A stretch of 64,000 bases of DNA from Spirochaetota bacterium (GCA_016214035.1 JACRPF010000003.1:62001-126000), one strand, 5' to 3'. Shown: positions 6,764-60,100, counted from the stretch's first letter. Notes: a model not told the origin generated them from the sequence alone. Made by a program: numbers and translations.

Positions 6764-8806
6764 TTACCACGAGAGTGCAATACGCGCTTTGAGCGTTTCG
6801 TCGGTGAGCATGCTGCCGCTGTCATACACCGCTTTCATCCGGTATTTGAGATTAACCTCCACTGCGGTGAATAGTTTTACGCGAAGTGTTACGAGTCCGA
6901 GCATGCCGTATCCGCTGAGTGCTGCCGACGCATACTCGCCGGGAATATCTTTTTCCGCGGTATATATCGTCCGTCCGCGGGCATCGAAGTACATATATTC
7001 CCCCGATACCGATATCCATGACGGCGGCAGTACCGTCACCTGTGCTATAGCCACATAACCATGCGTTGTATCAGCATCGACACCAAGCGAGTATATTCCT
7101 TTTACTTTCATGAGTACCAGATTGTTTTCGTACGCCGCACTCACCGCGGTGTCCGATGAGCTCACGATGGTTGCCGTATCGGATACTGCAACACGTTCGC
7201 GTATCTGTATGGTCATTTCGTGAAACGGCGAATAACTCAACGCGACGGCGGACAACGCCTTGCCGTCAGGAGTATCCTCCCCGTATCCCGGCCACAATTT
7301 CTGATACATATCGAGATACCACCGCAGCGAAAGCCCCCGGGCGATGTTCCAGTCAACCGCGTTATAGAGTCCGTATTCACCGCGCGGTTCAGCGGATGAG
7401 AACGCCTTATTATGGAAGACGGGCATCCGTTCATGGTAATAACGGACGGACGTCATCCAGGAGAATTTTCTTTTATCGAAGACGATGCCGCCCAGAAATC
7501 CCGGTGCTGCGGTAAGCGCCGCGCCGGTAACCCACGGGTGCTCTCCCTCGGGTATAATCGGAACTGCGAATTCGCCGAACAGCGTAAACGGATCCATCGA
7601 CCAGTTTCCGTGAAGCGAGATGCCGCCGTATGCGTTGCCGGAGAAATCAAACCGGTTATATGCGGCAGGCGCGGGTATCACCGGATACTGAAAGCGCGCG
7701 TACACTGCGGTGATGCCGATGCGTCGCGTCATGCCGGCATAGAAATCAATCGTGCCGCCGGCGATGGTTTCCACCTGCATGTTTCTGTTCGAACATGCGC
7801 TGCCGCTGTCGTGGAGCGGAGGATATTCCTCCATGCTGCGGACATGTTCTACCGGCGTGTCATAATATCCTGAAAGAACCTTCGCATCGCTTTGAAAGAG
7901 ACCCGCAAAGCATGACAATGTGATCGGGGCCGGAGCCGTCGCAACCACCATGCCGTTGAAGAATGTCTCGGCGCCGCCGCGGTCGGGCTGTATGCGGTGC
8001 TGCTTCTCATATTTCACGGGTGCGCTGTCGCCCGGTGATGACGCATAGCCCGTGGCGAACAGAAGTTTCTGGCCGAACGAAAGTGTCAGCGCACCCGCGC
8101 CGACGGTGCGTACCGGTCCCGCCGGTGTTGCGAATATGCTCATCTTTATCGTGTCGGCATAATCACGTTCACGCGCGTCATGTCCGATGAGCGCGTTCAT
8201 TTCCAGAATGCCGGGGACGGAAATGCCCAGGCGGTGCGTTATCGCGAACGGGTTGCCCGATGCACATTGTCTTGCTAGTCCGGTGAAATAGTCCTGTGCA
8301 ATCATCGCATGTGCGTTGTTGGTAGACCGCAGCGCCGCGGCTGCCGTTGTTGCCAGAAAAACACGCAACGGCATTTTGAAATCACGTTCATGTACGGTGA
8401 TGAACAAGCGCACTATCTCATAGGCATCTTCCGTTATAATGTTTGCATCGATGAGCTCATAGGTTGCGGTGAACGGTTTGACGGTGCGAAGCCGGATTAT
8501 TTCGGCAGCGGCGGCAGCGGAGATGAACGGAATATCGACAAGTATATCGAATGGTGCCGTGTTGATGTTCGCCGGCTCGTCGAACAGACGTTCTAGCTCG
8601 CGAAGGCGTTCCTCAGCATCGGATTCGTTGTTTATCAATACGTCACGGTAACGGTCGAGAACGGTTTCGAACGACAGCCCCGGAAGCAGCGGGATGCACA
8701 AAAGCAAGAGCATAACCGCATGAGCAGCGGTACGATGTGTGCGGAATGTATGGCATTTCTTATGTGCGGACAAGGTTCTGTGTTCAGTGATGATGAGACG
8801 TGTCAT
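6764..8806 (-). CDS. ComEA-like helix-hairpin-helix protein with predicted outer-membrane beta-barrel
   Basis: A 680-residue exported protein, last gene of a four-gene operon. A hydrophobic signal segment lies near residues 30-45 after an unusually long, His/Arg-rich start. Residues 70-140 carry a ComEA-type double helix-hairpin-helix: INTAPFDILVDIPFI, AAEIIRLR and a second FTATYELIDANII unit. HhH units of this type bind the DNA backbone non-specifically. The remaining 520 residues are rich in alternating aromatic beta-strands and end in RIALSW, typical of an outer-membrane barrel. The ATG overlaps the upstream stop as ATGA, with AAGG five bases ahead. A role in binding or passing extracellular DNA is an inference. 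Confidence 0.7.
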   Translation of the reverse strand: MTRLIITEHRTLSAHKKCHTFRTHRTAAHAVMLLLLCIPLLPGLSFETVLDRYRDVLINNESDAEERLRELERLFDEPANINTAPFDILVDIPFISAAAAAEIIRLRTVKPFTATYELIDANIITEDAYEIVRLFITVHERDFKMPLRVFLATTAAAALRSTNNAHAMIAQDYFTGLARQCASGNPFAITHRLGISVPGILEMNALIGHDARERDYADTIKMSIFATPAGPVRTVGAGALTLSFGQKLLFATGYASSPGDSAPVKYEKQHRIQPDRGGAETFFNGMVVATAPAPITLSCFAGLFQSDAKVLSGYYDTPVEHVRSMEEYPPLHDSGSACSNRNMQVETIAGGTIDFYAGMTRRIGITAVYARFQYPVIPAPAAYNRFDFSGNAYGGISLHGNWSMDPFTLFGEFAVPIIPEGEHPWVTGAALTAAPGFLGGIVFDKRKFSWMTSVRYYHERMPVFHNKAFSSAEPRGEYGLYNAVDWNIARGLSLRWYLDMYQKLWPGYGEDTPDGKALSAVALSYSPFHEMTIQIRERVAVSDTATIVSSSDTAVSAAYENNLVLMKVKGIYSLGVDADTTHGYVAIAQVTVLPPSWISVSGEYMYFDARGRTIYTAEKDIPGEYASAALSGYGMLGLVTLRVKLFTAVEVNLKYRMKAVYDSGSMLTDETLKARIALSW

Positions 8807-9633
8807 AATACCTTGCCGGCGCGGGCATCTGTTCCGGTATTCGCCGATGGGAAGACGAACGTTACTGCTGCTGAGATGACATGCGATATGCCGAGTTCCG
8901 GGTGTATGAGCATTGCATAATCGAATTGCGTCTGCCCTATGTGTATGCCGAATCCGAATCCCGCGGACATCGGTGCCGATGATGCGCCGACGCGAAGCGC
9001 AATGGCGTCGAACAATACATATTCAGCACCCGACCGTATCGAAAGTGTGTCAGCAGAGATGTCTATGGATGCGCATATGGCGAACGCCGGCGTAAGCGCA
9101 TACCGGCCGTCCGCTTTCAGTGAGACAGGAGTTGTTTCCAGGTCGCCGAATGATGCGCAGCGGCTCACTGCAATGCCGATTGATGATGCCTTTGAAAATC
9201 TGAACGATATTCCGGTGTCCAAAGAAAAACTTTCTGCCCGATAGTCATCGAGGGCAATGGCGTAACGGTGTACGGCGTATCCGAACGACAGCGACGGCGT
9301 TATCGCCAGCGCATGAACGAAATGTACGTTATCTTCCCTGTAAAACGGGAGCGCGAATGCGTCGTAGGAGATGCCGCCGGACGACCACGGCGTCCCGAAC
9401 GAAATCAAACCGCTGTACGTCATGACATCAGCGGTGTCCAGATACGGCAATCCCCATGACCCGAGGATGGAAATACCGTTCGTGAAAAAGCCGATGTCCG
9501 CGGGATTTGCGCTGTCAACGACGTTATTGCATGCTGAACCGCCGGGAACCAGCGCACATGCGGAGGTGAACCGGTGTGATTCGTACGCGGTAAGCATACA
9601 CGAAGTGAAAAGACATACCAGTGCAGCTCGCAT
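8803..9633 (-). CDS. Predicted outer-membrane beta-barrel protein (PorV/PorQ-like)
   Basis: A 276-residue protein with a short signal peptide (residues 1-16). A conserved-looking start follows: a DSANPADIGFF region, then strands of alternating hydrophobic residues ending near FGFGIHIGQTQFDYAMLIHPELGISHVISAAVTF. That closing pattern resembles the PorV/PorQ/UPF0164 barrels of Bacteroidota-like envelopes. Only one base separates it from the lamin-tail gene upstream, and it overlaps the HhH-barrel gene downstream by four bases. Its function in this operon is unknown; it could be an export or anchoring partner for the secreted proteins. Confidence 0.6.
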   Translation of the reverse strand: MRAALVCLFTSCMLTAYESHRFTSACALVPGGSACNNVVDSANPADIGFFTNGISILGSWGLPYLDTADVMTYSGLISFGTPWSSGGISYDAFALPFYREDNVHFVHALAITPSLSFGYAVHRYAIALDDYRAESFSLDTGISFRFSKASSIGIAVSRCASFGDLETTPVSLKADGRYALTPAFAICASIDISADTLSIRSGAEYVLFDAIALRVGASSAPMSAGFGFGIHIGQTQFDYAMLIHPELGISHVISAAVTFVFPSANTGTDARAGKVL

Positions 9634-9634
9634 G

Positions 9635-11581
9635 TCAGTCCCTTACGGCGAAATAGTATCGTGCGAAAGAGCTCGCGCCGGCGACGGCATCCACTGCCGA
9701 AATCTGAAAATAATAAAGATCAGGCTTCAATACCTGTGTACCGACAGCGCCGTTGAACGTAACTGACGCGGGCGTATTGCCGGCCGGACTGAGCGCCTGT
9801 GCGACAGCGCCGAGACAGCGGCCGTTTTTTGTGAACACGCGCACATCGCATGTCGCCGTGCCGGTGACGGTGAACGGTATGGTGAGCGGTCCCTGTCCTC
9901 GTGTGAAGACATATTTCGCGCGGGGTATGGTTACCGCAAGCGTCCCCGGCGATACAAGTGATATGCTGTTGCTTGCGCCGGGCGTTGCGTAGAGCTGTGA
10001 GGTATAGACGTTGGTGATACGTATGCCGGATTCCGTTTCAGAAGCGGTATAGGAAACCGGTGACGCGGTGCGCGCATTGCCCCAATTCTCCTTCATGAGC
10101 GCCGGTCTCCGGTATGATATCCGCTCCATCGAGATGAAGTCATTGTTGGTGATTGTTGCCGGTATTCCGTTCTTAGTTCCGCAGCGGGTTACCGCGGTGA
10201 TATACGTGTCCCGCGAATATGCGGCGGTATCGATGCTGTTTCCGCTCGCGTCGACGAGTGCGAGCGTCTGTTCCTGCGCGAGTCCGCCGAAGTCGCAGGT
10301 GATTACTGTCATGAGCGGTGAGCTCAGATTACCGTAGACGTTACGAAAATCATTCGATGAACGGGCGATGACACAGAAGCCGTTGGCCGGGATCACGCAG
10401 AACGGGATGTCATAGATGGAAGAATTCGGACTGCTTTCGCTCCATTTGTGCAGTTTGCACGATGATACTACGAACGGCGTGCTGCCGGTATTATGCAGTT
10501 CTATCCATTCGGTATAACGGTTGCTGATGCCCGCGGGGGCGAGTATGCGGAAGCTGTCGTTGATATACATGATTTCTGAGAAATATATCGTGCCGCTGCC
10601 GTGTCCGATGTTCCCCTTGACGGAAAACTCCGTTGCCAATGCGGGCAGCCTGTCGCCGGTCACTGAAGCTCGATGCGGTCCGGTGTGTCGTGTGCGGAAA
10701 TAAAATATTCCTGATCGCCCGCCGCTGATATCCATACTTATCGTATAGTCGCTTTTTGAATAGTTCTGAAGCTTTTGATAATGCATAATGTCGATGTCAT
10801 CCCGGATTGACACCGTCACACGCCCGCTATAACCGGGATCATACGTGCCTGCCGTGTTCATCGCGAAAACTTCCACCGGGAACGGGATGCCTGCGGTCGG
10901 CGTTATCTCCGGAAAACGCAGAGCAAATATTACTGCCGCGCCTTGTGTGAGCGACGCGGTGAGCGCATTGCTACATCCCGGCGTGCTGCCCGACGGTGCA
11001 GCCGTCGATGAACCCCAGTTCGAGACGCTGTCACACGCATACGGGTTGATGCGTTCTGTCGATATGCCGTATCGTATGCCGTAATCGGGAATGGCGTCCG
11101 GTATGCCCGGTGTGCCGTATGAATCAGCGATGACACCCGCCGGTGTTTTCAAAACGACGCATTTTTCGGAAGATATGTATGTGCTGCCTTCCACCAGCGA
11201 TGCCGCATTCACGGTCAGAAGTACCGTTCCTGAAGGAATATCGATTGTGTCTTCGCAGCGATAACCGCTGTCAAGTATGACGGCATAACCGTGCGCCGGG
11301 ATGACGGTCGTATTAGTGATGATGCCGGCTGCGATGTTCGTGAACGCTGTACTTTTTGCACCCCAGGGGATGATGCTCCGTCCGTTCGTGTCCGCATGGT
11401 TTGTGCTCAATTTATAGCCGGCAATATCTGCAGGCGTATCATCGCAGTTGTACAGTTCAACCCATTGATTGTAATAAAGACTTGCGCGGGACCGCTGATA
11501 GATTTCATTGATGACCACTGCCGCGTGTGTCATGCCGGACGCAAGAAGCAGTGCCGCCGCGAGTATTATCCTCAGGTTCAT
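9635..11581 (-). CDS. Exported protein with two lamin-tail domains and FlgD-like C-terminus
   Basis: A 648-residue protein with a clear signal peptide (residues 1-20). It has two lamin-tail (LTD) Ig-fold domains: one near residues 21-150 (VVINEIYQ, QWVELYN) and one near 335-460 (IYFSEIMYI, TEWIELHNTGS). The C-terminal 90 residues (VRVFTKNGRCLGAV ending with LKPDLYYFQISAVD) resemble FlgD-type Ig/sorting domains. Bacterial LTDs are known mainly in secreted or envelope proteins, often together with nucleases or phosphoesterases. The ATG overlaps the TGA of the PLD gene upstream, so the two are translationally coupled. It probably acts outside the inner membrane, binding a polymer or another protein. 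Confidence 0.8.
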   Translation of the reverse strand: MNLRIILAAALLLASGMTHAAVVINEIYQRSRASLYYNQWVELYNCDDTPADIAGYKLSTNHADTNGRSIIPWGAKSTAFTNIAAGIITNTTVIPAHGYAVILDSGYRCEDTIDIPSGTVLLTVNAASLVEGSTYISSEKCVVLKTPAGVIADSYGTPGIPDAIPDYGIRYGISTERINPYACDSVSNWGSSTAAPSGSTPGCSNALTASLTQGAAVIFALRFPEITPTAGIPFPVEVFAMNTAGTYDPGYSGRVTVSIRDDIDIMHYQKLQNYSKSDYTISMDISGGRSGIFYFRTRHTGPHRASVTGDRLPALATEFSVKGNIGHGSGTIYFSEIMYINDSFRILAPAGISNRYTEWIELHNTGSTPFVVSSCKLHKWSESSPNSSIYDIPFCVIPANGFCVIARSSNDFRNVYGNLSSPLMTVITCDFGGLAQEQTLALVDASGNSIDTAAYSRDTYITAVTRCGTKNGIPATITNNDFISMERISYRRPALMKENWGNARTASPVSYTASETESGIRITNVYTSQLYATPGASNSISLVSPGTLAVTIPRAKYVFTRGQGPLTIPFTVTGTATCDVRVFTKNGRCLGAVAQALSPAGNTPASVTFNGAVGTQVLKPDLYYFQISAVDAVAGASSFARYYFAVRD

Positions 11582-13356
11582 TGCCCGCTACGTGCATAGC
11601 CGGCGTTCAATGCGTCCCCCTCGCTTTTGAAATAGATGAGTTTATCCTGCGATGTACGTGCGAGAATACTGCGGTAGCGTACGTCACCCGGCAGATAGAA
11701 CTTCCGTGACGCGCGGTTGCCGATGAGACAACCCTCGTCATATGCGGCAAGAGCGATTGTGTTTTCGCGTTCGGCTTTAGCCATCGCTTCGTGCTTGATG
11801 CGTGCCGCGAATTCCTCGGGTGATTCTTTGAGCGTAAGTTCCGGTGACCATAATCCGCGCCGTTGCCGGGATGCGGTCATATATGCTTGTATCATTCCGG
11901 CATTGACTGTGTTTGATGTCATTCCCGTTGACGGAAGCGCAAATCCATCGGCAAGCATTTTCTCATTTATTGAAACGACGGTCCCCGGTACGTTGATGAT
12001 GCCCTCGCATGACAGGAAGCCGTTCGTACGGATGAAGCGTACCGTCACGGCGTGGCGCATAATCTCATGGGCGATGAACTGTCGTGTATACGCAAGCTGC
12101 GGATATTGCGAACGATATCCCTGATACGGAGCGCGTATGCCGTAGAGGCGGACGGTGCACAGTTCGTTCATATTCGATACGGCAATACGGACCGTGTCGC
12201 CCGATACGATTTCATGGACGATGCCGGAAAAAGCCCCTTTTTTGATAATGTCATCCATTGCCGTTGCGGCAAGTCGGTAACAGGCGCGTTTAGCCTCATC
12301 GTCAGGGGCTTCCTGCAGGAACTTCCTGAGCGGTATTTCCGATGCCTCGCGCCAGAGCTCCTCATAACGGCTTATGTATCTGCGTGCGACGTTTTTCGAC
12401 TTGATGATTACCGCGTTTTCGTCGTTGCGTTCAGCGTTGAGCGAGAAGTTGAACGAACCGGTGAGCACGGTGTCGTCATCGAGCATAATGCATTTATGAT
12501 GTATCTTTGCCGCATCGTTATCCTTGGCGATATAGGACAGCCGCTGGTCCTTTAAGATGTCATAAGGAAGCAGCCGTTTTGTCTTCGCGAGACCGTCGGT
12601 GAATGTGTCGTCGAATATACCGCTCACGATGACGCCGTCACGTTCACGTTCGTTCATAGCATAGGCGAGCGGTAATGATGAAAACGCAAAGCAGAGAAAT
12701 CGGATGCGGTCGCGCGCCTTTGCTACCGCCGCGGTATAATGCCCCGTGATGCCGTCCCCGGGCGAGAAATACACCTCGACCGGAACATCACCTACGGTGA
12801 ACCGGTTCTGCTTCGAGGCGAGCTGCCCGGGGAACGTGAGCGGGTCCACGAGCGAGAGATAGTGCTCGTAATACCTCCCGGCAACGACTGCATCCTCGAT
12901 AAGGATGCAGTCGTTGTAGTTATAGAAAAAACCGCGTTCGGTTATATTGGCGGACCCTATCCACACCCTTCGTATATCCACCAAAATGAACTTGTTATGC
13001 ATAAGACTGCCGCGCCGGTCGAAACGGACGGGAATGTTTGCCTTCGATAAAATTGACAGCGCGGCGCCGTTCCTCGGATTGTTCGTGGCATCGCTTTCCA
13101 TGAAGAGCGATACCTTCACGCCGTTCTGCTTTTTCGCGGCGAGCCGTGCGGCGACGTCGATGAGGTCCATCTCGTAGAGGCAGAGATGTATCGATTCCCG
13201 GGCGCTGTCGATGTACCGGATGAAATTGGTATACGCACCGTTCATGTCATTCGCCGCTGCCGGCGTAAAGTACACCGATATCGGCGCTGCGGATAGCATG
13301 GCGCACGATAGTGCGAGTATGCCCGCCCGTTTGACTGCTGATGTATATCGGAACAT
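11578..13356 (-). CDS. Exported phospholipase-D-family nuclease with C-terminal SNase-like domain
   Basis: A 592-residue protein, first gene of the operon, with a signal peptide (residues 1-24) and an AAGGA ribosome site. Two full HKD motifs are visible: HNKFILVD followed by GSANIT (about residues 120-140), and HHKCIMLD followed by GSFNFS (about 285-310). This is the arrangement of PLD-type nucleases and phospholipases. Residues 385-500 form a staphylococcal-nuclease-like OB fold starting IVHEIVSGDTVRI. It keeps the GDTV aspartate and the Arg of VRLYGI but lacks equivalents of the other catalytic Asp, Glu and Arg. That domain therefore probably binds nucleic acid rather than cutting it. Nuclease or phosphodiesterase activity at the cell surface or periplasm is likely. 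Confidence 0.85.
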   Translation of the reverse strand: MFRYTSAVKRAGILALSCAMLSAAPISVYFTPAAANDMNGAYTNFIRYIDSARESIHLCLYEMDLIDVAARLAAKKQNGVKVSLFMESDATNNPRNGAALSILSKANIPVRFDRRGSLMHNKFILVDIRRVWIGSANITERGFFYNYNDCILIEDAVVAGRYYEHYLSLVDPLTFPGQLASKQNRFTVGDVPVEVYFSPGDGITGHYTAAVAKARDRIRFLCFAFSSLPLAYAMNERERDGVIVSGIFDDTFTDGLAKTKRLLPYDILKDQRLSYIAKDNDAAKIHHKCIMLDDDTVLTGSFNFSLNAERNDENAVIIKSKNVARRYISRYEELWREASEIPLRKFLQEAPDDEAKRACYRLAATAMDDIIKKGAFSGIVHEIVSGDTVRIAVSNMNELCTVRLYGIRAPYQGYRSQYPQLAYTRQFIAHEIMRHAVTVRFIRTNGFLSCEGIINVPGTVVSINEKMLADGFALPSTGMTSNTVNAGMIQAYMTASRQRRGLWSPELTLKESPEEFAARIKHEAMAKAERENTIALAAYDEGCLIGNRASRKFYLPGDVRYRSILARTSQDKLIYFKSEGDALNAGYARSGQ

Positions 13357-25569: not shown

Positions 25570-25711
25570 ACCGTACTTTTCCTGTAAACGCAGAACACTA
25601 TCCCTCAGGTAATCGATGTATTTTCATAGTTTTCAAACGCATTGTCATAGCGTCTGTCAGACCCATGCAGTAGTATATCAACAGCGTAAAAAACGGCGCA
25701 AGGAGCTTCAT

Positions 25712-27199
25712 ATGAAAAAGATCGTCATCAACCGTGCGGAATATATCGATAAGGTCTACGGCTGCTGGATAGGGAAGAACATCGGCGGAACGCTCGGTAC
25801 ACCGTTCGAGGGCAGACGCGAGATACTCGATGTTACCGGCTACACATCGCCCGCCGGATCACCGCTTCCCAACGACGACCTCGACCTTCAGCTTGTGTGG
25901 CTCAAGGCAGTCATCGAGCACGGCGTGAAGAATATCACCGCGTCGCTGTTAAGCGAATACTGGATCGATTTTATTCCGCCGCCGTGGGGCGAGTACGGCA
26001 TCGGAAAGATGAACATACGCGCGGGACTGCTGCCGCCGCTTTCCGGCATGCATAACAATGAGATACTCAGGCATTCGAACGGTGCGTGGATACGTTCGGA
26101 GATCTGGGCGTGCCTGTTCCCCGCGGCTCCCGATGCGGCGATACGGCTTGCCTACGAAGACGCGTCCGTCGATCACGGCAGCGGCGAGGGGATGTATGCG
26201 GAGCTTTTTACCGCGGCTGTCGAGAGCGCGGCGTTCGTGATATCCGATGTGCGCGAGCTCATACGCATAGGTCTCTCAAAGATTCCGCCGGACTGCCGTG
26301 TTGCGCGTGCGGTGAACATAGCCGTCACTGCATACGATGCAAAACGCACCTGGCAGGAAGCACGCGGTCTCGTGGTTGCCGACAGCGTGCCGGAGATCGG
26401 CTGGTTCCAGGCTCCGGCGAATGTGGGTTTTGTCATCATCGGCTGGCTCTACGGTGAGGGTGATTTCGGCAGGTCGCTTCTCATCGCCACCAACTGCGGC
26501 GACGACACCGACTGCACCGCAGCGACACTCGGCGCTGTCATGGGCATCATACGCGGCGCGAAAAATATTCCCGCGGAATGGATAAAACCCATCGGCGACA
26601 GCATCGTCACGGTTGCCATCAACCGGGGACCCGCGCAGGGCTTCTGGCCGAAGACGCTTGCCGAGCTTACCGAGAAGACGATAGCTCAGACGCCGCTTGC
26701 GCTTGCGGCATTCGGTACTCCGGTGGAGATAAACGACGGCGCAACGGATGTCACCGCACTTTCCGGCATGGACTTCGCCGCAAAAGCGACAGCGGAAAAG
26801 ATATGCGCCCGGTCGCCGTATGCGGTACGCGTATCGTCGCCCAATGCCGTCATCACACTCGACTATCAGCGGTCGCCGGTGCTCCGCGCCGGTGAGCCGT
26901 TCACCGTCCGTGTCGATATCGAAAGCGTCACGGCGGATCATTGTCAGTTCGACATCACCTGGTATCTGCCGGATAATATCCGTGTCCTTGAAGGGAAGAC
27001 GCGTACGGCGTTGATGCTGCAGCGGTGGGTGGAGTCGGGGCTTATCAGCCGGGGAAGCGGTAAGCCGCATGAGCCGTTCACCTTCACGCTCGTCGCCGAC
27101 AGACTCGATACGGGAACGATTCGCGGCGTGCTTGAGGTCCGCGCGCAGGGACGTGCGAATGCCGGTTATATCCCGGTCGTATTCCTGAACGAAGGCTGA
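25712..27199 (+). CDS. ADP-ribosylglycohydrolase-family protein, copy 1
   Basis: A 495-residue protein; the ATG at 25712 has AAGGAG upstream. Residues 1-360 form the DraG/ADP-ribosylglycohydrolase fold: GCWIGKNIGGTLGTPFEG at the start, a first metal motif in the unusual form PNDDLDLQLVWLK, and a second in TNCGDDTDCTAATLGAVMG. Residues 390-495 look like a beta-sandwich (VRVDIESVTADHCQFDITWYLP). The replacement of the usual TDDT-type first motif suggests a substrate other than ADP-ribosyl-arginine. Its neighbours point to glycan or glycoside use. The paralogue is at 34613-36388. Confidence 0.87.
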   Translation: MKKIVINRAEYIDKVYGCWIGKNIGGTLGTPFEGRREILDVTGYTSPAGSPLPNDDLDLQLVWLKAVIEHGVKNITASLLSEYWIDFIPPPWGEYGIGKMNIRAGLLPPLSGMHNNEILRHSNGAWIRSEIWACLFPAAPDAAIRLAYEDASVDHGSGEGMYAELFTAAVESAAFVISDVRELIRIGLSKIPPDCRVARAVNIAVTAYDAKRTWQEARGLVVADSVPEIGWFQAPANVGFVIIGWLYGEGDFGRSLLIATNCGDDTDCTAATLGAVMGIIRGAKNIPAEWIKPIGDSIVTVAINRGPAQGFWPKTLAELTEKTIAQTPLALAAFGTPVEINDGATDVTALSGMDFAAKATAEKICARSPYAVRVSSPNAVITLDYQRSPVLRAGEPFTVRVDIESVTADHCQFDITWYLPDNIRVLEGKTRTALMLQRWVESGLISRGSGKPHEPFTFTLVADRLDTGTIRGVLEVRAQGRANAGYIPVVFLNEG

Positions 27200-30761: not shown

Positions 30762-32792
30762 TTACCGCCGCTGTTTGATACGCGCGAGCGCCTCCGGAGT
30801 GAAACTGTACGGCGGATATTCGGGATTGAAGCGCGACGCGGTGCCGTTCTTCTCGATATCATCCATCCAGTTTCTCGTGCGGTAGTAGCCGAGCGAGCTG
30901 CCGGTGCAGCGCCGTGTGGAGTAGCGGTACTTCATGAAATAATCCTCACGCGCGTTGCTGTCGCCGGCGGTGAACGCCTTGGCGCGTATCATGGCGAGCG
31001 CCTTCTCGCTGTTCTGCATGCCGAGCTGCGCGTTCTTGTACCAGTTCTCGATGTCCTTCACGCTCTGCGACAGATAGAAGGGCTGAAAGTCCTTCACAAG
31101 TTTGTCGTACGTTATCTGGCCTACAAGGAAGAGATTGTACATCTGATTCCATTTTATCGACGTCTCGCCGCCGAATGCGCTCCAGTTCATCACGCCCGGA
31201 ACACCGTCGAGGCGCTGGTTGAACTGCGCCAGTATGCCTTTGGCCTCGATGTTCCGTATCGACGGCATCCAGCCAATCTGCGCATTGAGCCGTTCATTGT
31301 TGCGTTTCGATGAGAGAAACAGCAGAAAGTCGATGGCCGCTTTTTTCCGCTCGGGGGCGTTATGCGGCGTGGGACAGGCGAACGGGAAACCCTGTGATGC
31401 GCGGTCCTGCGCCGGTCCCTGCATGAACTTCCCGAATTCAGGATCGTTATCTGCAGGTATCGGGAAATCGATGACCGATATTTCAAATCCGTTCTCGTTG
31501 GCATATTTCTGGACATACGAGACATCCCATGTCCCCATGGCGTAGAACACCGCGCGCTGCTGCACGAACATGAGCGGACCGTCGTCGTAATTAAGCCCGA
31601 TGAATCCTTCGATCAGTGCGGTCGCCGACATGTTCGAAAGCATCGAGAACGCGGCATTATAGGCCGGATGGTGCATGTCGAATTTTTTCAGGCGCATGGC
31701 GAAATACGCCTCGTCGCCGGGCGTCGTGCCGTCACGGTTGAGGTCGGCGTCATAACGTACGGTCGTCGTTACCGGGTCGATGATATACTGGCGTGTCATA
31801 TTGAAATAGCCGCCGGTATTCGCGAGCGGTACGTAGTTGGGGCTCCGTCCGATGATGCCGTCTATCTCCTTCTGGATGCTGGCGACGGTGACGTTCACGT
31901 CCGACGCGCGGGCGGCAGCATCCGCTGTCGAAAGCGAGCTCTTCAGTTCGTCGATGCGTTTACGGAGTTTTGTGACGGTTGCGGCGTCCGATGAGCGCAC
32001 GTATTTCTGTTTGCGTATCTCCCGGCATGCGGCCATGAACTCGCGCCAGTCTTTCGGCGGTGTATCCCTGCCGGTCAGTTTCTGGTAGAGCTTTTTATTG
32101 TAGAAGAGCCGTATCATGAAGAACGAGAGCGGCACGGTCATGTATTCCTGAACTTCGTCGACATAGGCGGTGCGCATTCCGTCACGCATCGTGTCCTTGA
32201 GCGGCACGTTCGCGAACTCGTTGTCGGCGTTGTACGGGTTGGGCTGCGAGACATATTCGGTGAGCGGGTGAAAATATCTGAGATAGTACTGGATGAGGAT
32301 GTTGTACGGAACACCCTGTCCCACCTCGATGAGATCGGGCGGATTGCCGCCCACCATCTGCGTGACGAACCACTGTCCGTAGGTCTGCGACGGCATCGCA
32401 TTCTGGACGACACGCACGTTCGGGTGCAGTTTCTCATATTCGCGGGCCATGAAATCGACGCTTTCACGGACGCCGGGTTCCACCTGCCAGTGCACGATCA
32501 TGATGGTGGTGCGTTTTCCGGAAGCGTTCCGGGGCACGGAGATGCGTGTGCCGGGCGTGATCACCGTTGACGGTGTGATATCGGGATAATTCAGGTCATA
32601 GATCTCTTTCGGCGTTACGCCGTAATTACTCGCGATGGCCGTGATGGTATCGCCCTGCTCGGCGACATACGATCCCGAGACCATCGGCAGGCTCATGTTG
32701 TTGAACATCACGATACCCGCCGCGACGATGAACGCGAGCGCGATTATCAGGATCCCGAAATACTTTTTTATGATTGCTCCGATGGGCTGCAT
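30762..32792 (-). CDS. Membrane-tethered LysM plus family-1 extracellular solute-binding protein
   Basis: A 676-residue protein. An uncleaved-looking hydrophobic segment (residues 13-32) is followed by a LysM domain (about 42-88: YVAEQGDTITAIASNYGV, then PSTVITPGTRISVP). A full sugar-type substrate-binding domain comes next (from about residue 95: MIVHWQVEPGVRESVDFMAREYEKLHPNVRV, with NPPDLIEVGQG and the AIDFLLFLSS region). A coiled insertion lies near residues 250-300. LysM domains bind peptidoglycan or chitin-like glycans, so the receptor may be held at the cell wall. No permease or ATPase genes are adjacent. AAGGAG precedes the ATG; the TPR lipoprotein gene ends ten bases upstream. Confidence 0.85.
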   Translation of the reverse strand: MQPIGAIIKKYFGILIIALAFIVAAGIVMFNNMSLPMVSGSYVAEQGDTITAIASNYGVTPKEIYDLNYPDITPSTVITPGTRISVPRNASGKRTTIMIVHWQVEPGVRESVDFMAREYEKLHPNVRVVQNAMPSQTYGQWFVTQMVGGNPPDLIEVGQGVPYNILIQYYLRYFHPLTEYVSQPNPYNADNEFANVPLKDTMRDGMRTAYVDEVQEYMTVPLSFFMIRLFYNKKLYQKLTGRDTPPKDWREFMAACREIRKQKYVRSSDAATVTKLRKRIDELKSSLSTADAAARASDVNVTVASIQKEIDGIIGRSPNYVPLANTGGYFNMTRQYIIDPVTTTVRYDADLNRDGTTPGDEAYFAMRLKKFDMHHPAYNAAFSMLSNMSATALIEGFIGLNYDDGPLMFVQQRAVFYAMGTWDVSYVQKYANENGFEISVIDFPIPADNDPEFGKFMQGPAQDRASQGFPFACPTPHNAPERKKAAIDFLLFLSSKRNNERLNAQIGWMPSIRNIEAKGILAQFNQRLDGVPGVMNWSAFGGETSIKWNQMYNLFLVGQITYDKLVKDFQPFYLSQSVKDIENWYKNAQLGMQNSEKALAMIRAKAFTAGDSNAREDYFMKYRYSTRRCTGSSLGYYRTRNWMDDIEKNGTASRFNPEYPPYSFTPEALARIKQRR

Positions 32793-34612: not shown

Positions 34613-36388
34613 ATGAAATCGAAGAAACCGGTATCGAAGATAACGGACACACAGCGTGTCCTCGGATGTCTCAAGGGCAAGGCCATCGGCGGAACGCTCG
34701 GCACGCCGCATGAAGGCAAGATGAAGCTCATGGACCTCACGTTCTACGATCCGGTACCGACGGGCATACTCCCGAACGACGATTTCGACCTGCAGCTCCT
34801 GTTCCTTGAAGCGGTGGAGAACGCGGGCGGCGTTGTCGACACCATGACGCTTGCGCGCACGTGGATTGAAAAAGTGCAGTTCCCCTGGGACGAATACGGC
34901 GTTGCGAATCTCAACATCCGCCGCGGTTTCAAGCCGCCGGTTACCGGCTGGTTCGACAATCCGTTCAAGCATTGCATGGGAAGCCCCATACGCAGTGAGA
35001 TGTGGGCGCTGTTAGCTCCGCGCCGACCGGCACTTGCGGCATATTTCGCCATGCAGGACGCGATGATAGACCACAGCACCGAAGGCATGGCAGGCGAGAT
35101 GTTCTTCGCGGCGTTCGAGTCCGCGGCCTTCGACGGCGGCAGCATGGACGACCTCATCGCCACCGGTCTTGCGTATACGCCGAAGAACAGCATCACCTAC
35201 CGCGCGGTGCGTTTCGCGCTCGATAACTACAAGAAGTTCGACTGGCCGGTGCTCCGCGAGAAGATCCTCGAGCAGTTCGGTCACCCCAATTTTACCGAAG
35301 CCCCGCAGAATATAGCGTTTACCATCATCGGGCTGCTGTATTTCCCGAACGATTTTGACAAAGCGCTTCTATCCACCACCAACTGCGGTTACGATACTGA
35401 CTGCACCGCGGCCACCATCGGCGCGATGTGGGGAGTGATGTACGGCGATAATTTCCCCGAACGCTGGCTCAAACCCATCGGTGAGAACGTGCTCGCAAGC
35501 CACGGCGTCGTTGATATGAGCGTTGCGGCTACACTTACCAAACTCGCGGTGGACATCGAACGCGTGCGCGGCATTGTCGCGAAACGGTATGCGAAAGTCA
35601 CCGACGCAAAACTCAAGGCGATGACGCAGGCCACGCTTGCGGAACCCGGCAAGATGAAGATAGACCAGAACAGCGATATTACCATCGATTACGGCAAGTC
35701 GCCCGTTTTGAACGGCACGAAAAAGATCCCGTTCACCGGCGCGATAAAAAAAGTATTTACCAAACAGCCGTTCAGCGCATCCATCAAAGGCAAGGCCATA
35801 CTTCTCAACCTCGATAAAAAAGCCCCGTTCTATCCCACGCACGTGAAAGTCACCGCCGAGACCGCCGACGGGTCGCAGTACGAATTCGCACTTGTCACTG
35901 CTCATGAAATGTGGATAGGCACACCCGCGTCGCCCGATGCGTTCGCGTCGCTCGCTTCATCGCCCTTCGATGCGCTTGCTAAGGATGGGAAAGTAAAGCC
36001 CTTCACGCTCGATGAACGGCTGTTCCTGCTCAAGGATCTTCCGGACGCCGAATGGCTGCATCTTGGCGGACATATTCATCTCGGTTCATACGGCAAATAT
36101 CGTCTCGCCGCATATGCCGAATGTCCGGTACAGGGCTTTCTTGACGGGGTTCAGGTCATGAACGAAGCAGAAGGCGCCGCATGCATTCCCGCCCCCCACC
36201 GCGGCGGCAAGCCCGGCATGATTCACGACGCGGAGCTCAAAGGCGGCTGGCACCGCTGGGATGTTTTCCTGAACAAGAAGAAAGCGATTCGCGAAGGCAA
36301 GGTGACGCTCGTGCTTGCGTATGCATATGACAAACAGCTCATCGACTTCAAGTTTCGCAGAAGCAATGCGGGGGTTTACGCGCACTGA
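34613..36388 (+). CDS. ADP-ribosylglycohydrolase-family protein, copy 2
   Basis: A 591-residue paralogue of the protein at 25712-27199. It has the same opening (GCLKGKAIGGTLGTPHEG), the same variant first metal motif (PNDDFDLQLLFLE), and TNCGYDTDCTAATIGAMWG as the second. The middle region differs. The C-terminal 220 residues are extended beta-sandwich-like sequence (VTAETADGSQYEFALVTAH, WLHLGGHIHLGSYGKYRLAAYAECPVQGFLDGV) that may bind carbohydrate. AAGGA precedes the ATG. It converges on the fucosidase gene. Probable cytosolic hydrolase of an unknown N- or O-glycoside. Confidence 0.85.
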   Translation: MKSKKPVSKITDTQRVLGCLKGKAIGGTLGTPHEGKMKLMDLTFYDPVPTGILPNDDFDLQLLFLEAVENAGGVVDTMTLARTWIEKVQFPWDEYGVANLNIRRGFKPPVTGWFDNPFKHCMGSPIRSEMWALLAPRRPALAAYFAMQDAMIDHSTEGMAGEMFFAAFESAAFDGGSMDDLIATGLAYTPKNSITYRAVRFALDNYKKFDWPVLREKILEQFGHPNFTEAPQNIAFTIIGLLYFPNDFDKALLSTTNCGYDTDCTAATIGAMWGVMYGDNFPERWLKPIGENVLASHGVVDMSVAATLTKLAVDIERVRGIVAKRYAKVTDAKLKAMTQATLAEPGKMKIDQNSDITIDYGKSPVLNGTKKIPFTGAIKKVFTKQPFSASIKGKAILLNLDKKAPFYPTHVKVTAETADGSQYEFALVTAHEMWIGTPASPDAFASLASSPFDALAKDGKVKPFTLDERLFLLKDLPDAEWLHLGGHIHLGSYGKYRLAAYAECPVQGFLDGVQVMNEAEGAACIPAPHRGGKPGMIHDAELKGGWHRWDVFLNKKKAIREGKVTLVLAYAYDKQLIDFKFRRSNAGVYAH

Positions 36389-44361: not shown

Positions 44362-44395
44362 GCGGTGTTTCTCCCGTGTACGAGGTGTTTCTTCT

Positions 44396-44423
44396 ATTGT
44401 ACTCCATCCATTCTATTTCGCAA
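44396..44423 (-). promoter_or_regulatory. Promoter of the MORN-like gene
   Basis: On the minus strand TTGCGA (44423-44418), a 16-bp spacer and TACAAT (44401-44396). Confidence 0.55.
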
Positions 44424-44457
44424 TTGCCGTTTTATGAGCCGTATTTCCTGCGCAGAT

Positions 44458-44486
44458 TTGACTATACGCGCGGAATGGCATATACT
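44458..44486 (+). promoter_or_regulatory. Promoter of the ankyrin gene
   Basis: TTGACT, a 17-bp spacer and TATACT, 33 bp before the ATG at 44520. Confidence 0.7.
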
Positions 44487-44519
44487 ATCGTGAGTTACGT
44501 CGAAAAAGGAGTGCTCAGT

Positions 44520-47117
44520 ATGAGAAATGCACGGTTTCTCACCGTCATCATTGTATTATCCTTCATCTTTTCCTTTTTGAATGCTCAGGACAGCCTTATC
44601 GACGCACTGGACAAAGGTGATGTACGGGCGATAGAACAGCAGCTTGCCAAAGGCGCCGATGTGAACGCCAAGGATGTGGATGGATATACCGTGTTTATGT
44701 ATGCCGCTGCGTTCGGCAATGGAGATATTCTCAAGAGTATCATCGCCAAGGGTGCGGAAACAAACACAAAAGCAAACAAGGGCATGAGCTATTTCATGGC
44801 GCTTGCCGCCTGTGGACTCACCAATGAAATGGTGCCGCTTATCGATAAAGAGAATGTGAATGCGGTGCGTTTTGACGGACGTACCGCGCTTATGTACGCT
44901 GCGATGAACAATCAGCTGCAGGCGGTGAATATGCTTGTGGCAAAAGGCGCCTCCATCGCTGCAGAAGACAGCGACGGCTGGACGGCGCTCATGTTCACCT
45001 GTGCAAACGACAAACGGGCATCGAAGCGGGTGTCGTTAGGGCGATTTAAAGTGCGCACACAGGCGTTCGTTGATGCTGGACTTGATATTGTCAAGTTACT
45101 CGTATCAAAGGGAGCCGACGCGAAAGCGAAGACCCCCGATCGGTTCACGACGCTGATGTACGCTTCTCTCAATAATAATGTGGCGATGGCGGAATATCTT
45201 ATCGGCAAGGGCGTTGAGGTCGACGCGCTCAATGATGAGGACCGCACGGCGCTCATGTATGCAGCCATGAATAATAATGTAGAACTCGTGAAACTCCTTC
45301 TCGGCAAGGATGCCGATGTCAATATCCGCAATACCGACGACTGGAACGCGCTCATGTATGCGTGCGCAACCGATAAGCAGATGCTCAAAGCGGACGCCAC
45401 CGCGCGCGGAAAGGCGACGAGTTCGCTTCAGAATAACATCCGCACGGTGACGATACTGCTGAACAGCGGCGCCGATGTTTTCCTCCGCAACCGTCAGGGC
45501 GGAACGGCGCTCATGTATGCCGCCGCGAATGATAACACCGCTGCCATCGAGATGATCCTTGCTAAAGCCGCGGCGAGTCCGGCGCGCGACGCATTGAATC
45601 TGGTTGTCAACGCCAAGAACTTCGACGGCTGGACGGCGCTCATGTATGCCGCCGCCAATGAGAACCGCGATGCGGCGCAGCTTCTGCTTGAAAAAGGGGC
45701 CGATGCAAATGCGCAGAATATCGACGGCTGGACGCCGCTCATGTTCGCTGCGTTCAACGGCGACCGCGCCACAATAGGGTCTATTCTGTCATTTTTTCCC
45801 AATGTGAATGCGGAAAGTCTCCATGGACAATCGGCGCTTGAATATGCGGTACAGCAGAAACACTATGAGGCTGCCGCCGATCTTCTCGCGAAAAACACCA
45901 TACCGCCGGCCGATTTTATCCGCAGTCAATTCGATATCGGCGCGACGAACATCCTGAAAATGATTACCGACGGCGCATTTTATAAGGAACGGTATCGTTT
46001 CATCAAGGCCAAATACGGCAGGGTGAACGATAAGATACTGCAGAAGTACGCGCTTGGTATTATCAGCGAGGACGATGTTCTGCCGCTGTCAAAGCTCGGG
46101 ACGCTGTTTGAATCTCCGTATATCGATTATTGGGTGTATGGCGCGGTGAATACCGACGTCATACGCTGTATCATCGATGTTGCGCATATGACCGGCGGAA
46201 AGACGATGACGCTTACGGCGCTGGTCACACAGCTTATGCCCACCAATGCCGATTATGATTCGCTGCTCGGCGCATTTTACCGCGGTGCCGGCATGCTTCT
46301 GTTCGATAACAGGGTCCGTTCAACACTCACGACAAAAGTGCAGCCGGGCTTCGGCGATACGTTCACTACAATGCTGAAACAGCGACTGGTTGCCGTGGGT
46401 GATTCCCGCCGAGCACGCCGCGACCTGTACCGCGCCAATGTAATAGAGCGTATCGCATATGAATACAGCGGTATGATCAGCGACACCGACATAATGAAGA
46501 TGCGTGCTGAAAAACGGCCCATGGATATTGTAGCGCTGTTTTCTAAAAAATATCCATTGCTGGACACGGCGGTCCGGGGTCTTGTCGCCGCCGCGACGAA
46601 TGCCATCCCGCTCGTTGAGGACCGGGAATGGCGTCAGTGTTTTCTCTATGACGCGGCGCTGTATGTGCTCGGCAACAGTGCGCTCAGCAATACAACCCCC
46701 GAAGCGTTTCAGAGCGCGCTGGATGCATATCGCGCGTATGTCAGGGATGAGTTCGCGCTTGAAGAACTCGCCCTTGACCGCATTGTCCGCGACGTCCGGC
46801 GTTTCGGTGCCGCCGCCGGCAGCTATGCGATGATCAGGAAAAGCCCCCATGTGAACAACCCTTCGTATGAACGCATACTGACCGATGTCGGTGTCTATCT
46901 GATGACGAACGTACGTCCGAAGCAGATAGTTGATGCGCTTATATCCTGTGTACCCGCTGCGGGTATGACGAGGGCCGAAGTGAAACTTATCGCGCCGACG
47001 AATGCGGGGGCGGTAAAAGCGATGAATTCGAATACAACAAATGAGATATGGGTAATTGACGGCAGGACGTTCGTTCAGTTCTCGGGCGACACGGTTTCCG
47101 CGGTCAAGGATCGATAA
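44520..47117 (+). CDS. Exported ankyrin-repeat protein with large unknown C-terminal domain
   Basis: An 865-residue protein with a signal peptide (residues 1-22, ending FLNAQ). AAGGAG precedes the ATG. Residues 30-485 form about ten ankyrin repeats with the recurring core DGWTALMYAAxN. Some repeats are enlarged by loops of 15-25 residues. The last 380 residues are helical and show no domain I recognise. Periplasmic or surface ankyrin proteins usually act as binding scaffolds. It precedes the sugar nucleotidyltransferase gene by 37 bp. Confidence 0.88.
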   Translation: MRNARFLTVIIVLSFIFSFLNAQDSLIDALDKGDVRAIEQQLAKGADVNAKDVDGYTVFMYAAAFGNGDILKSIIAKGAETNTKANKGMSYFMALAACGLTNEMVPLIDKENVNAVRFDGRTALMYAAMNNQLQAVNMLVAKGASIAAEDSDGWTALMFTCANDKRASKRVSLGRFKVRTQAFVDAGLDIVKLLVSKGADAKAKTPDRFTTLMYASLNNNVAMAEYLIGKGVEVDALNDEDRTALMYAAMNNNVELVKLLLGKDADVNIRNTDDWNALMYACATDKQMLKADATARGKATSSLQNNIRTVTILLNSGADVFLRNRQGGTALMYAAANDNTAAIEMILAKAAASPARDALNLVVNAKNFDGWTALMYAAANENRDAAQLLLEKGADANAQNIDGWTPLMFAAFNGDRATIGSILSFFPNVNAESLHGQSALEYAVQQKHYEAAADLLAKNTIPPADFIRSQFDIGATNILKMITDGAFYKERYRFIKAKYGRVNDKILQKYALGIISEDDVLPLSKLGTLFESPYIDYWVYGAVNTDVIRCIIDVAHMTGGKTMTLTALVTQLMPTNADYDSLLGAFYRGAGMLLFDNRVRSTLTTKVQPGFGDTFTTMLKQRLVAVGDSRRARRDLYRANVIERIAYEYSGMISDTDIMKMRAEKRPMDIVALFSKKYPLLDTAVRGLVAAATNAIPLVEDREWRQCFLYDAALYVLGNSALSNTTPEAFQSALDAYRAYVRDEFALEELALDRIVRDVRRFGAAAGSYAMIRKSPHVNNPSYERILTDVGVYLMTNVRPKQIVDALISCVPAAGMTRAEVKLIAPTNAGAVKAMNSNTTNEIWVIDGRTFVQFSGDTVSAVKDR

Positions 47118-57180: not shown

Positions 57181-60100
57181 TTATCGGCGACGCGTCACCA
57201 TCACCCGTACCGTTTCCTGTTTTATGCCGTCGGCCATAGTGACGGCAAAATAGACTCCGGGTGATACCTTTCTGCCTGATGTGTCGGTGCCGTCCCATAC
57301 AGCCGTCGTGTTCACTTCACGCAGTGTGGTCACCAGTTTTCCGGATACGGAATAGATGTTCACCACGGCGTCCCTCACAACATTGAGGAATGTGATATCG
57401 CCTTCGCCCCGGTACGGGTTCGGTACCGGTAGAAGACCATGCTGCATGGAGAATACGGTGAACACGAGCTCCTGTGTCGCTTTGTTACCTTCAAAGTCGA
57501 TTGCGGTGAGCATCAGGGAATTGCTTCCAAGCCGGTTAAAGGATATCGCCAATGAAAGTGTGTTTGTATACGGTGATGCGGAAACCGTGACCGGCGCACC
57601 GCCGTTTGTAATATAAGTGAATGATACAAGTGACAGATCCGTTGCGGAAACACGTACGTTCGTACTTGTCGATACGACAAAATTCGTGGGGTATATAAAC
57701 GCAGGCTTCATGGTGTCCGCATTGGACAGCGCGATATACTGGGTTGATGATGTATTGTCGCCGCGGTCTATTACGAAAACGCCGATGTTGGTGTATTGCG
57801 AGATAAAGCCCGGCACGGCAAGCCCCGATAGCAGTGAACTGTAGGGATAGATCGCAGGGGTGCTTCCGTTCGAGACGATGAGTCCGACCCTGTCTATGCC
57901 GGATATCAGATCATTCGTTCCGTTGATGACGACGCCGTATGCTTTGCCATTCGTCGCCGACGGTGTACCTGAGAGTGATGTGTATGTTGGCGGCAGTTTA
58001 TCCACGTTCGAAATGGAGATGTACTGCGTGACCGATGAGTTCGTGGCGTGGTCGAGCGCATACACGCCGATATTCGTCGTTGAGGTGACCAGTTGTATGA
58101 ACGGTCCGTTGATGATGTTGGCTGGGCCGTTCGTTATCGATATGCCGCCGTTACTGACAAAGCAGACCGTGTTCATAACGCCGTAGCCGAAATCGCCGAG
58201 GCCGTTAAGCAGGAGCCCGTACAGCGTGCCGTTGGTTGCGATGCCGCCGGACAGCGAGAATGTCGGCGCCTGTGTGTCGACATGTGCAACGCTGATATAT
58301 TGTGTGACGGATGAATTCATAGCGCCGTCAAGCAGATAGACGCCGATATTGGTGGTGCGTGAGGTGAATGCGGAGACATACACACCGTTGAGCGCATTGG
58401 CGGGCGGGTTCGTGACCATGATGGCGCTGTTGGAAACAAAACATACAGTGTACAGTATACCGCTGCCGATATCATTGGTGCCGTTGATGCTGATGCCGTA
58501 GAGCGTGCTGTTCGTGGCCGCAGATGTACCGGAAAGCGATGTGTATGCCGGCGGTGACATGTCAACGACACACCCGCCGCTCCATGCTGTCCATGCTCCG
58601 GCGCCCCAGTCGTTGCTGGCGCGTACGCGCGTGTAATAGTATTTTCCGTCGATACCGGTGAACGAATGGCGGTTTGAACTGAGGTTTGTGATGACGAGCG
58701 TATCGATCTTGTTGGAGCTGACCTCAAGCAGGTAAACCACGCCGGCATTGATGAGCGAACCTTTGGACCAGGAAAAGTGTACGGTGTTTGAAGCGGCTAT
58801 TGCCGTTGATGCAACGGGTGTCACGGGAGTGCCGCTGATTGCGAACGACAGATTCGTTACTTTTCCGCAGCCGAATTCGTTGTCGACACCTGCGGTGCCC
58901 ATATCGACTGCATTGCTGATAAGATGATTCCTGACGTCGGTTGCGGTATACGACCCGAGATACGCGCCCCAGATTACCGCTGCATGTCCGGCGATGCTCG
59001 GTGATGCCGAGGATGTGCCCGCGAATTTGCCGTACGTCCAGTTCGTCATGTACGAATATCCGCTGATGTCGGGTTTGATGCGTCCGTCCGCCGTCGGCCC
59101 CTGCGAACTGTACCATGCGCTCGGGCCGGACATCCAGTTGCTTGCATCGATAGCGCCGACGGATAGTGCACCGGTGGCGCATGCGGGTGCGACAATGCTG
59201 CCGGCTTTCACCGAATACTGGAGATTCTGAGCCGTTGCTATCAGGCGCAGGTTCTTTGCGACTCCCGAATATTTTCCGATGATGCAGCCGTAGGTTCCGG
59301 TTGCGGCTGCGGTGTATGAGATCGATTCCACGGGATAGTCGTCGCCGTTCTGTATATTCCATGACAAAGCGACATTTGACCATGCGGAACCCGTCCAGTA
59401 ATACAGTTCAAGGTCGTAGTCATTGGCGCTGCCGCCCCAGGTGTCGTCCCAGCAGAGGTAGAGCCGTATGGATGTCCCGCTTGATACTGTACCGAGCTGA
59501 TTGATCTCGCCGGTAGTGCCGGAAAATTCATGCACGTAGTCCGCGTCGGTATCGGCAAACATACCCTGCCAGTGGCCGCGTGCATAATTTCCCGCCGAGT
59601 TAACCCAGAGAATACCGTTGGCCGCAGCATCGTTGACGATGGCGGATATGGGGCCGTCCCCGCGCCCGAATTCGGTGTTGAGCCAACCCATGGAGTGGTT
59701 GACGATGTTGATGCCGTTCGCTTTGCAGTAGTTTTTCGCCGTGCCGAGCTGCGCGCTCGTTTCTATCTTCATCAGATACAGCGTGGCGTCCGGCGCCGCT
59801 TCATAAACAACTTCAGCGACCGCGGTGCCGTGTGTTGTCCCTGTTTCCATTCCCGCGCCGCTGAAGTCAACGTTCACTGCTGATGCGGGTACTTCTCCGG
59901 CCCCTTGCGCGCTTGCAAGGCCGATAAACCCGCCGTCGATGACGGCTGCCTTAACCCCGCTGCCGCGACTTCCTTTTATATGAAGATTGGTGACCCCGTT
60001 CGAGATGATTTCCTCGCCGGTAATAGCGAGTTCTTCCGGACGAAGCGGTGCTTCAACGCGAATGCCGGCGATGCCGTCAAGCATGGCGATAGTGCCGAGC

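Follow-up and report, generated by a model that had tools for sequence, protein, structure and literature searches.

The window, a stretch of 64,000 nucleotides from a Spirochaetota genome (G000), carries on one strand four genes in the order PLD nuclease, LTD protein, PorV/FadL-like barrel of 14 strands and HhH-headed barrel of about 24 strands (Table 1). The open reading frames of all four are present where the initial annotation placed them, and its description of an overlapping or abutting cluster was verified both in the coordinates and in the junctions (ATGA overlaps at two of them, a single base at the third). Signal peptides of the four proteins were assessed by eye, and that of the large barrel has an unusually long n-region. 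Scans of the cluster for promoters and terminators gave counts no higher than in shuffles. Because homologous clusters recur in several phyla, the cluster is more than a chance arrangement. In agreement with what had been expected of the locus, conserved neighbourhoods of the barrel pair were found in several phyla, and the AlphaFold models contain both HhH helices and barrels.

Table 1. Features of the four-gene cluster, in positions of the window
Feature	Position	Strand	Basis
PLD-family nuclease gene, 592 aa	11578..13356	-	ORF
First HKD motif, residues 119-141, MHNKFILVD...GSANIT	12934..13002	-	Pfam PLDc active site 5.9e-6
Second HKD motif, residues ~286-308, HHKCIMLDDDTVLTGSFNFS	12433..12501	-	aligned to Nuc active site (residues 286-338)
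SNase-like domain, residues 401-504	11845..12156	-	Pfam SNase 0.0036, below cut-off
Sunset-like small C-terminal domain, residues 546-590	11587..11721	-	NCBIfam sunset 0.002, below its cut-off
ATGA stop/start overlap, PLD/LTD genes	11578..11581	-	sequence
LTD protein gene, 648 aa	9635..11581	-	ORF
1-bp gap TGA-C-ATG, LTD/PorV-like genes	9634	-	sequence
PorV/FadL-like barrel gene, 276 aa	8803..9633	-	ORF
ATGA stop/start overlap, PorV-like/HhH-barrel genes	8803..8806	-	sequence
HhH-headed large barrel gene, 680 aa	6764..8806	-	ORF
N-terminal HHH_3 domain, residues 79-137, degenerate hairpin (DIPFISAAA, ANIIT)	8396..8572	-	Pfam HHH_3 3.9e-6
Barrel region, residues 156-680	6767..8341	-	predicted strands

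The first protein has two PLDc_2 domains (Pfam 3.7e-39, two stretches) and the two HxKxxxxD motifs of the PLD superfamily. Its profile matches in NCBIfam are NucT (7e-15) and DrmC (1.3e-17), its sequence matches in the PDB are Nuc (1byr, 2e-12) and NucT (6ehi, 9e-7), and Zucchini-type nuclease/hydrolases are also among its closest relatives. Judged by sequence, it is nearest to nucleases (Nuc, NucT) and nuclease-type PLDs and not to lipases, which agrees with the earlier view of a nuclease rather than a lipid-only enzyme. The protein resembles NucT, Nuc and DrmC in its HKD motifs, its export (by eye) and the significance of profile and sequence matches; however, it joins two PLD domains with an SNase-like and a sunset-like domain in one chain and falls below the equivalog cut-offs (55 bits versus 297 for NucT). 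The SNase-like domain scores 18.2 bits against a Pfam cut-off of 21 and does not qualify as a nuclease domain. By eye, the equivalents of D40, E43 and R87 are lost, and GIRAPYQG stands in place of GIDAPE. Since these catalytic positions are lost, the domain is probably a non-catalytic OB fold.

The LTD protein contains two lamin tail domains (Pfam LTD 5.1e-20, two stretches; 72 bits against a cut-off of 34.3), and its C-terminus is an Ig-like region homologous to the FlgD_ig/T9SS-type tails of relatives. The family match extends through this C-terminus to L039 (1469-2761, 1.3e-17). FlgD_ig and Por_Secre_tail ends are often found on LTD proteins of relatives, and LTD genes lie just upstream of the barrel pair in many loci of Spirochaetota, Elusimicrobiota and Mcinerneyibacteriota. 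Secreted DNases are known to contain LTD domains (PMC6085458, PMC4486849, PMC8289736). As in ExeM and its relatives, which are such DNases, we see an exported LTD protein in a context of DNA degradation, but in the window the LTD and the nuclease are encoded by two genes beside outer-membrane barrels (a fusion of the two, in G479, is described below).

The small barrel has no Pfam match, and its match to the PorV/PorQ profile is weak (0.026; 14.1 bits against the 90-bit cut-off of family NF033709). AlphaFold models of both barrels were built with alignments of 14-15 relatives and have moderate confidence (pLDDT 71 for each). The model of the small barrel has 14 strands, and its best PDB match by Foldseek is 6h3i_F (7.9e-8), PorV of the T9SS translocon, followed by FadL (6.7e-7). 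Strand number and structural matches thus place it, as modelled, in the PorV/FadL fold. It differs from this family in being much shorter, in scoring below family cut-offs and in being paired with a large HhH barrel. The PorV-like barrel of the window itself has no HhH. Its relatives in Spirochaetota, Elusimicrobiota and Mcinerneyibacteriota have a C-terminal ComEA-type HhH (alignments A2 and A7) with canonical ComEA hairpins (LPRIGPKTA, LPGIGPKKA), and the A2 profile matches the ComEA structures 8dfk and 8dss at 1e-20 to 1e-21.

The model of the large barrel begins with N-terminal helices (residues 46-132), which are followed by about 24 strands. Its Foldseek neighbours are MtrB (5e-12), FimD (4e-10) and TonB receptors. 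Because TM-scores to these PDB neighbours are low (about 0.38), the large protein is, on its model, a big barrel outside any specific known family. An MtrB-like electron conduit, the top Foldseek match (6r2q_B), was set aside for its low TM-score (0.38), and the genes beside the cluster included no identified cytochrome. We found no paper describing the large barrel in the literature searched, and libraries name only its HhH domain, which passes the HHH_3 cut-off narrowly (27.3 bits versus 27). In ComEA, the G-h-G hairpin contacts the DNA backbone. The large barrel lacks this hairpin (DIPFIS in the window), and its second glycine is replaced by S, T, D or N in 14 of 14 aligned large barrels. 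The HhH of the large barrel is therefore not retained as the DNA-binding ComEA domain of the initial annotation; with the DNA-contact glycine gone from every aligned member, the domain is probably an HhH-derived helical plug or docking domain. Hence, from the domain set first proposed, PLD, double LTD, barrels and HHH_3 stand, whereas the SNase-like domain is below threshold and the HhH hairpin is degenerate. The window genome encodes ComEC and a separate exported ComEA-like ORF with LPGIG. Orphan HhH-less barrels of families f5 and f24 (L075-L080, L082) were without module neighbours and were set aside.

The adjacent barrel pair is the core of the module and recurs in Spirochaetota, Bacteroidota, Ignavibacteria, Elusimicrobiota and Mcinerneyibacteriota. 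Of the 98 loci examined, 69 have the PorV-like gene immediately upstream of the large barrel, including 20/20 loci when the first Bacteroidota set is taken by itself. With the large-barrel profile, we found nine full-length members among 296 Spirochaetota genomes, members at E <= 1e-50 in about three quarters of sampled Bacteroidota (133/178), members in 13 of 80 Elusimicrobiota genomes and in all seven genomes (7/7) from the phylum of L086, which was taken to be Mcinerneyibacteriota. A first contig search queried with the window pair gave no match, and an alignment of eight rows showed no segment conserved well enough to serve as a query. In the reduced SprA-less Bacteroidota genomes inspected, the large barrel occurs without a PorV-like partner.

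The PLD gene is an optional but recurrent partner of the barrel pair, because it lies beside some clusters and elsewhere in other genomes. Full-length orthologues of the window PLD are present in G000, G001, G040 and G070. The gene follows the barrel in G040, where gene order differs from that of the window, and it is unlinked to the barrels in G070 and in G001, the nearest relative; calling the exported PLD 'dedicated' to the cluster was hence too strong. Two Elusimicrobiota (G526 and G487) encode a two-domain PLD with T9SS-type tails 3-4 genes upstream of the barrel. In G479, a 2726-aa fusion of three LTDs and a PLD domain lies directly upstream of LTD, PorV-like and HhH-barrel genes, the same order as in the window. 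Five genomes from three phyla thus have a PLD gene next to the module (the window genome, G040, G526, G487 and G479), and none was seen in any Bacteroidota locus examined.

Genes of known DNA-uptake systems adjoin the pair in several lineages. Each of the four Mcinerneyibacteriota pair clusters for which a downstream flank was available (L086, L193, L194, L195) has comEC as its next gene on the same strand (Pfam Competence 2e-37 to 4e-39 for the three tested). In one Bacteroidota genome (G302), comEC is next to the pair with overlapping reading frames (2.5e-57); in two Elusimicrobiota (G489 and G492) it lies 6-7 genes downstream, and in three Endomicrobia (L089, L201, L202) the pair is directly followed by genes for a type IV pilin and a prepilin peptidase. 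At position +1, about 0.03 comEC genes would be expected among 98 loci, by a rough estimate with some 3000 genes per genome, versus five seen in two independent lineages; since these lineages are related within themselves, the comparison gives no formal p-value. Adjacency to comEC was seen in only one Bacteroidota locus, about 1 of 46 retrieved with wide flanking regions, and the nine Spirochaetota clusters have no such neighbour. Mere presence of ComEC is uninformative, as nearly every genome of the phylum has it (284 of 296 Spirochaetota genomes), and it was dropped as a discriminator. Among the literature searched, only an archaeal biofilm paper names both the lamin tail domain and comEC. 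The neighbouring comEC, pilin and prepilin peptidase genes support the idea of DNA import put forward in the initial annotation, whereas no evidence was found for phospholipid or teichoic polymers, its other suggested substrates.

To our knowledge, the mechanism by which DNA passes the outer membrane in Bacteroidota and neighbouring phyla is largely unknown, and the context of the barrel pair makes it a direct candidate for this step, together with associated DNA-handling surface proteins. We think it fairly probable that the cluster encodes an outer-membrane module for catching extracellular DNA, shortening it and delivering it to the periplasm, probably to ComEC. Points against this reading are the scarcity of comEC neighbours in Bacteroidota and Spirochaetota loci, the degenerate HhH of the large barrel, the separate location of the PLD orthologue in G001, the moderate confidence of the barrel models and the recovery of another HhH protein and another barrel by a transformation screen in Riemerella (PMC8459023). 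In such a scheme, the LTD protein, which has a T9SS-type tail in relatives, would be displayed on the surface and bind DNA or extracellular matrix. The PLD protein would nick or cut DNA into ends or short pieces, and its SNase-like domain would serve only for binding. The PorV-like barrel may anchor or shuttle tailed surface proteins and partner the large barrel; the barrel of about 24 strands would be the conduit, with the N-terminal HhH-derived helical domain plugging it on the periplasmic side or providing a docking site there. A canonical ComEA-type HhH, located on the PorV-like barrel of many relatives or encoded by the separate exported gene of the window genome, would then pull the strand in, and ComEC would carry it across the inner membrane, for use in transformation or in feeding on DNA.

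The conserved module is probably a variant of transformation machinery with barrels in place of the secretin, and its relatives, some of them located next to comEC or pilus genes, suggest that a bacterial route of DNA intake has been overlooked. Like ComEA/ComEC machinery, it involves a ComEA-type HhH_3, which many relatives have joined to the partner barrel, and in some lineages its immediate neighbours are comEC or genes for a type IV pilin and a prepilin peptidase. However, the candidate for passage through the outer membrane here is the barrels and not the PilQ secretin, and the HhH of the large barrel itself is degenerate. More tentatively, and as a possibility that we would not yet call probable, the pair may be a widespread outer-membrane DNA channel in Bacteroidota, Spirochaetota, Elusimicrobiota and relatives, in which a barrel of about 24 strands with HhH-derived plug and its PorV-like partner replace or supplement PilQ, with the LTD protein as receptor and the PLD protein as nuclease.

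Other functions could also be consistent with parts of these data. Surface LTD and PLD proteins might degrade DNA for nutrition, with the barrels acting as oligonucleotide porins and no transformation involved; the likeness of the PLD protein to NucT and Nuc, the LTD domains of secreted DNases cited above and the restriction of comEC linkage to some lineages fit such scavenging. We regard it as rather unlikely, because the neighbouring genes for ComEC, a type IV pilin and a prepilin peptidase point to import of strands over salvage of nucleotides, and genes directly flanking the window cluster include no nucleotidase or nucleoside transporter. That the PLD and LTD proteins are only loosely associated with a barrel pair of unrelated housekeeping role in the outer membrane, with PLD adjacency due to chance, appears very unlikely to us: although the PLD gene is unlinked in two genomes and absent from the Bacteroidota loci, its presence next to the module in five genomes from three phyla, in differing gene orders and once as an LTD-PLD fusion, is far beyond chance. 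A FadL-like barrel next to a phospholipase D may also suggest transport of lipids or hydrophobic compounds, and FadL indeed ranks second among the structural matches of the small barrel. This seems extremely improbable, since the closest relatives of the PLD protein are nucleases and Zucchini-type nuclease/hydrolases, and both the ComEA-type HhH fusions and the adjacent comEC genes are at odds with it.

The link to T9SS needs a separate consideration, because the barrels could help to export or anchor LTD and PLD proteins bearing CTDs, with nucleic acid not being the cargo. PorV as the best structural match of the small barrel and the T9SS-type tails on neighbouring LTD and PLD proteins agree with this function. 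The window genome also encodes a 2205-aa SprA homologue, which qualifies as a SprA/Sov translocon component, and SprA occurs in 7 of 9 Spirochaetota carriers versus 79 of 287 other genomes (p=0.003, with kinship ignored and a SprA profile built partly from carriers). Dependence of the pair on T9SS, attractive in Spirochaetota, fails in Bacteroidota, where the HhH barrel is present in 39/39 sampled SprA-negative genomes (20 listed explicitly and 19 by difference) and either missing or weakly matched in many genomes that have SprA, so that the co-occurrence of pair and T9SS does not extend across phyla. Thus, dependence on T9SS cannot be what the pair is mainly for there, and an accessory role in T9SS seems quite improbable as the explanation of the module; T9SS is likely the route for its LTD and PLD surface partners. 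We keep DNA capture and import as the preferred function.

A comparable combination of proteins is found in Riemerella anatipestifer. A transposon screen showed that transformation of this bacterium needs ComEC, DprA, ComF and RecA together with four functionally uncharacterized proteins, and only the four named proteins resemble known transformation machinery (PMC8459023). Besides a surface protein, transformation requires a predicted barrel and an HhH protein, both among the uncharacterized four (RA0C_RS04915/RS04920/RS02645), of which RA0C_RS04915 has a carboxypeptidase-regulatory domain and RA0C_RS02645 is predicted to be periplasmic with its HhH at 236-301 (PMC8459023). Because of this location and HhH position, which differ from an HhH placed N-terminally on a barrel, RA0C_RS02645 was set aside as a homologue of the large barrel. 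With its barrel, surface protein and HhH protein, the Riemerella set is instead taken as an analogue of the module of the window.

Relatives of the large outer-membrane barrel that lack the HhH head occur as solitary barrels in seven genomes of families f5 and f24 (loci L075-L080 and L082). At these loci a conserved gene of about 370 aa adjoins the barrel gene, and in most of them a DnaQ-like exonuclease gene adjoins it as well. A second, paralogous copy of the cluster of lamin tail domain protein, PorV-like barrel and HhH-barrel was observed at L197-L199 (genomes G479, G480 and G481); G479 and G481 carry besides it the cluster in which comEC follows the barrel pair.

At loci of Ignavibacteria, and at some of Bacteroidota, a gene of about 295 aa lies divergent from the PorV-like gene (L090, L091, L095-L097 and several within L124-L134). 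The L096 copy, the sole one tested, matched DUF4835 (1e-71), a family also named PorD of the T9SS. A homologue of the T9SS translocon SprA/Sov is encoded in the Spirochaetota genome studied here (G000), and related matches occur in 86 of the 296 genomes of this phylum.

Among the other genes of the window, the two of the ADP-ribosylglycohydrolase family lie no more than about 10 kb apart.

Coordinates of further genes in G000
Feature	Location	Strand
ADP-ribosylglycohydrolase family, first	window 25616-27199	+
LysM domain fused to extracellular solute-binding protein	window 30762-32792	-
ADP-ribosylglycohydrolase family, second	window 34613-36388	+
Ankyrin-repeat protein, 913 aa	window 44376-47117	+
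Subtilase (S8) domain protein, 1090 aa	window 57181-60453	-
SprA/Sov homologue, 2205 aa	contig C22, about 126881-133498 (= L102:6882-13499)
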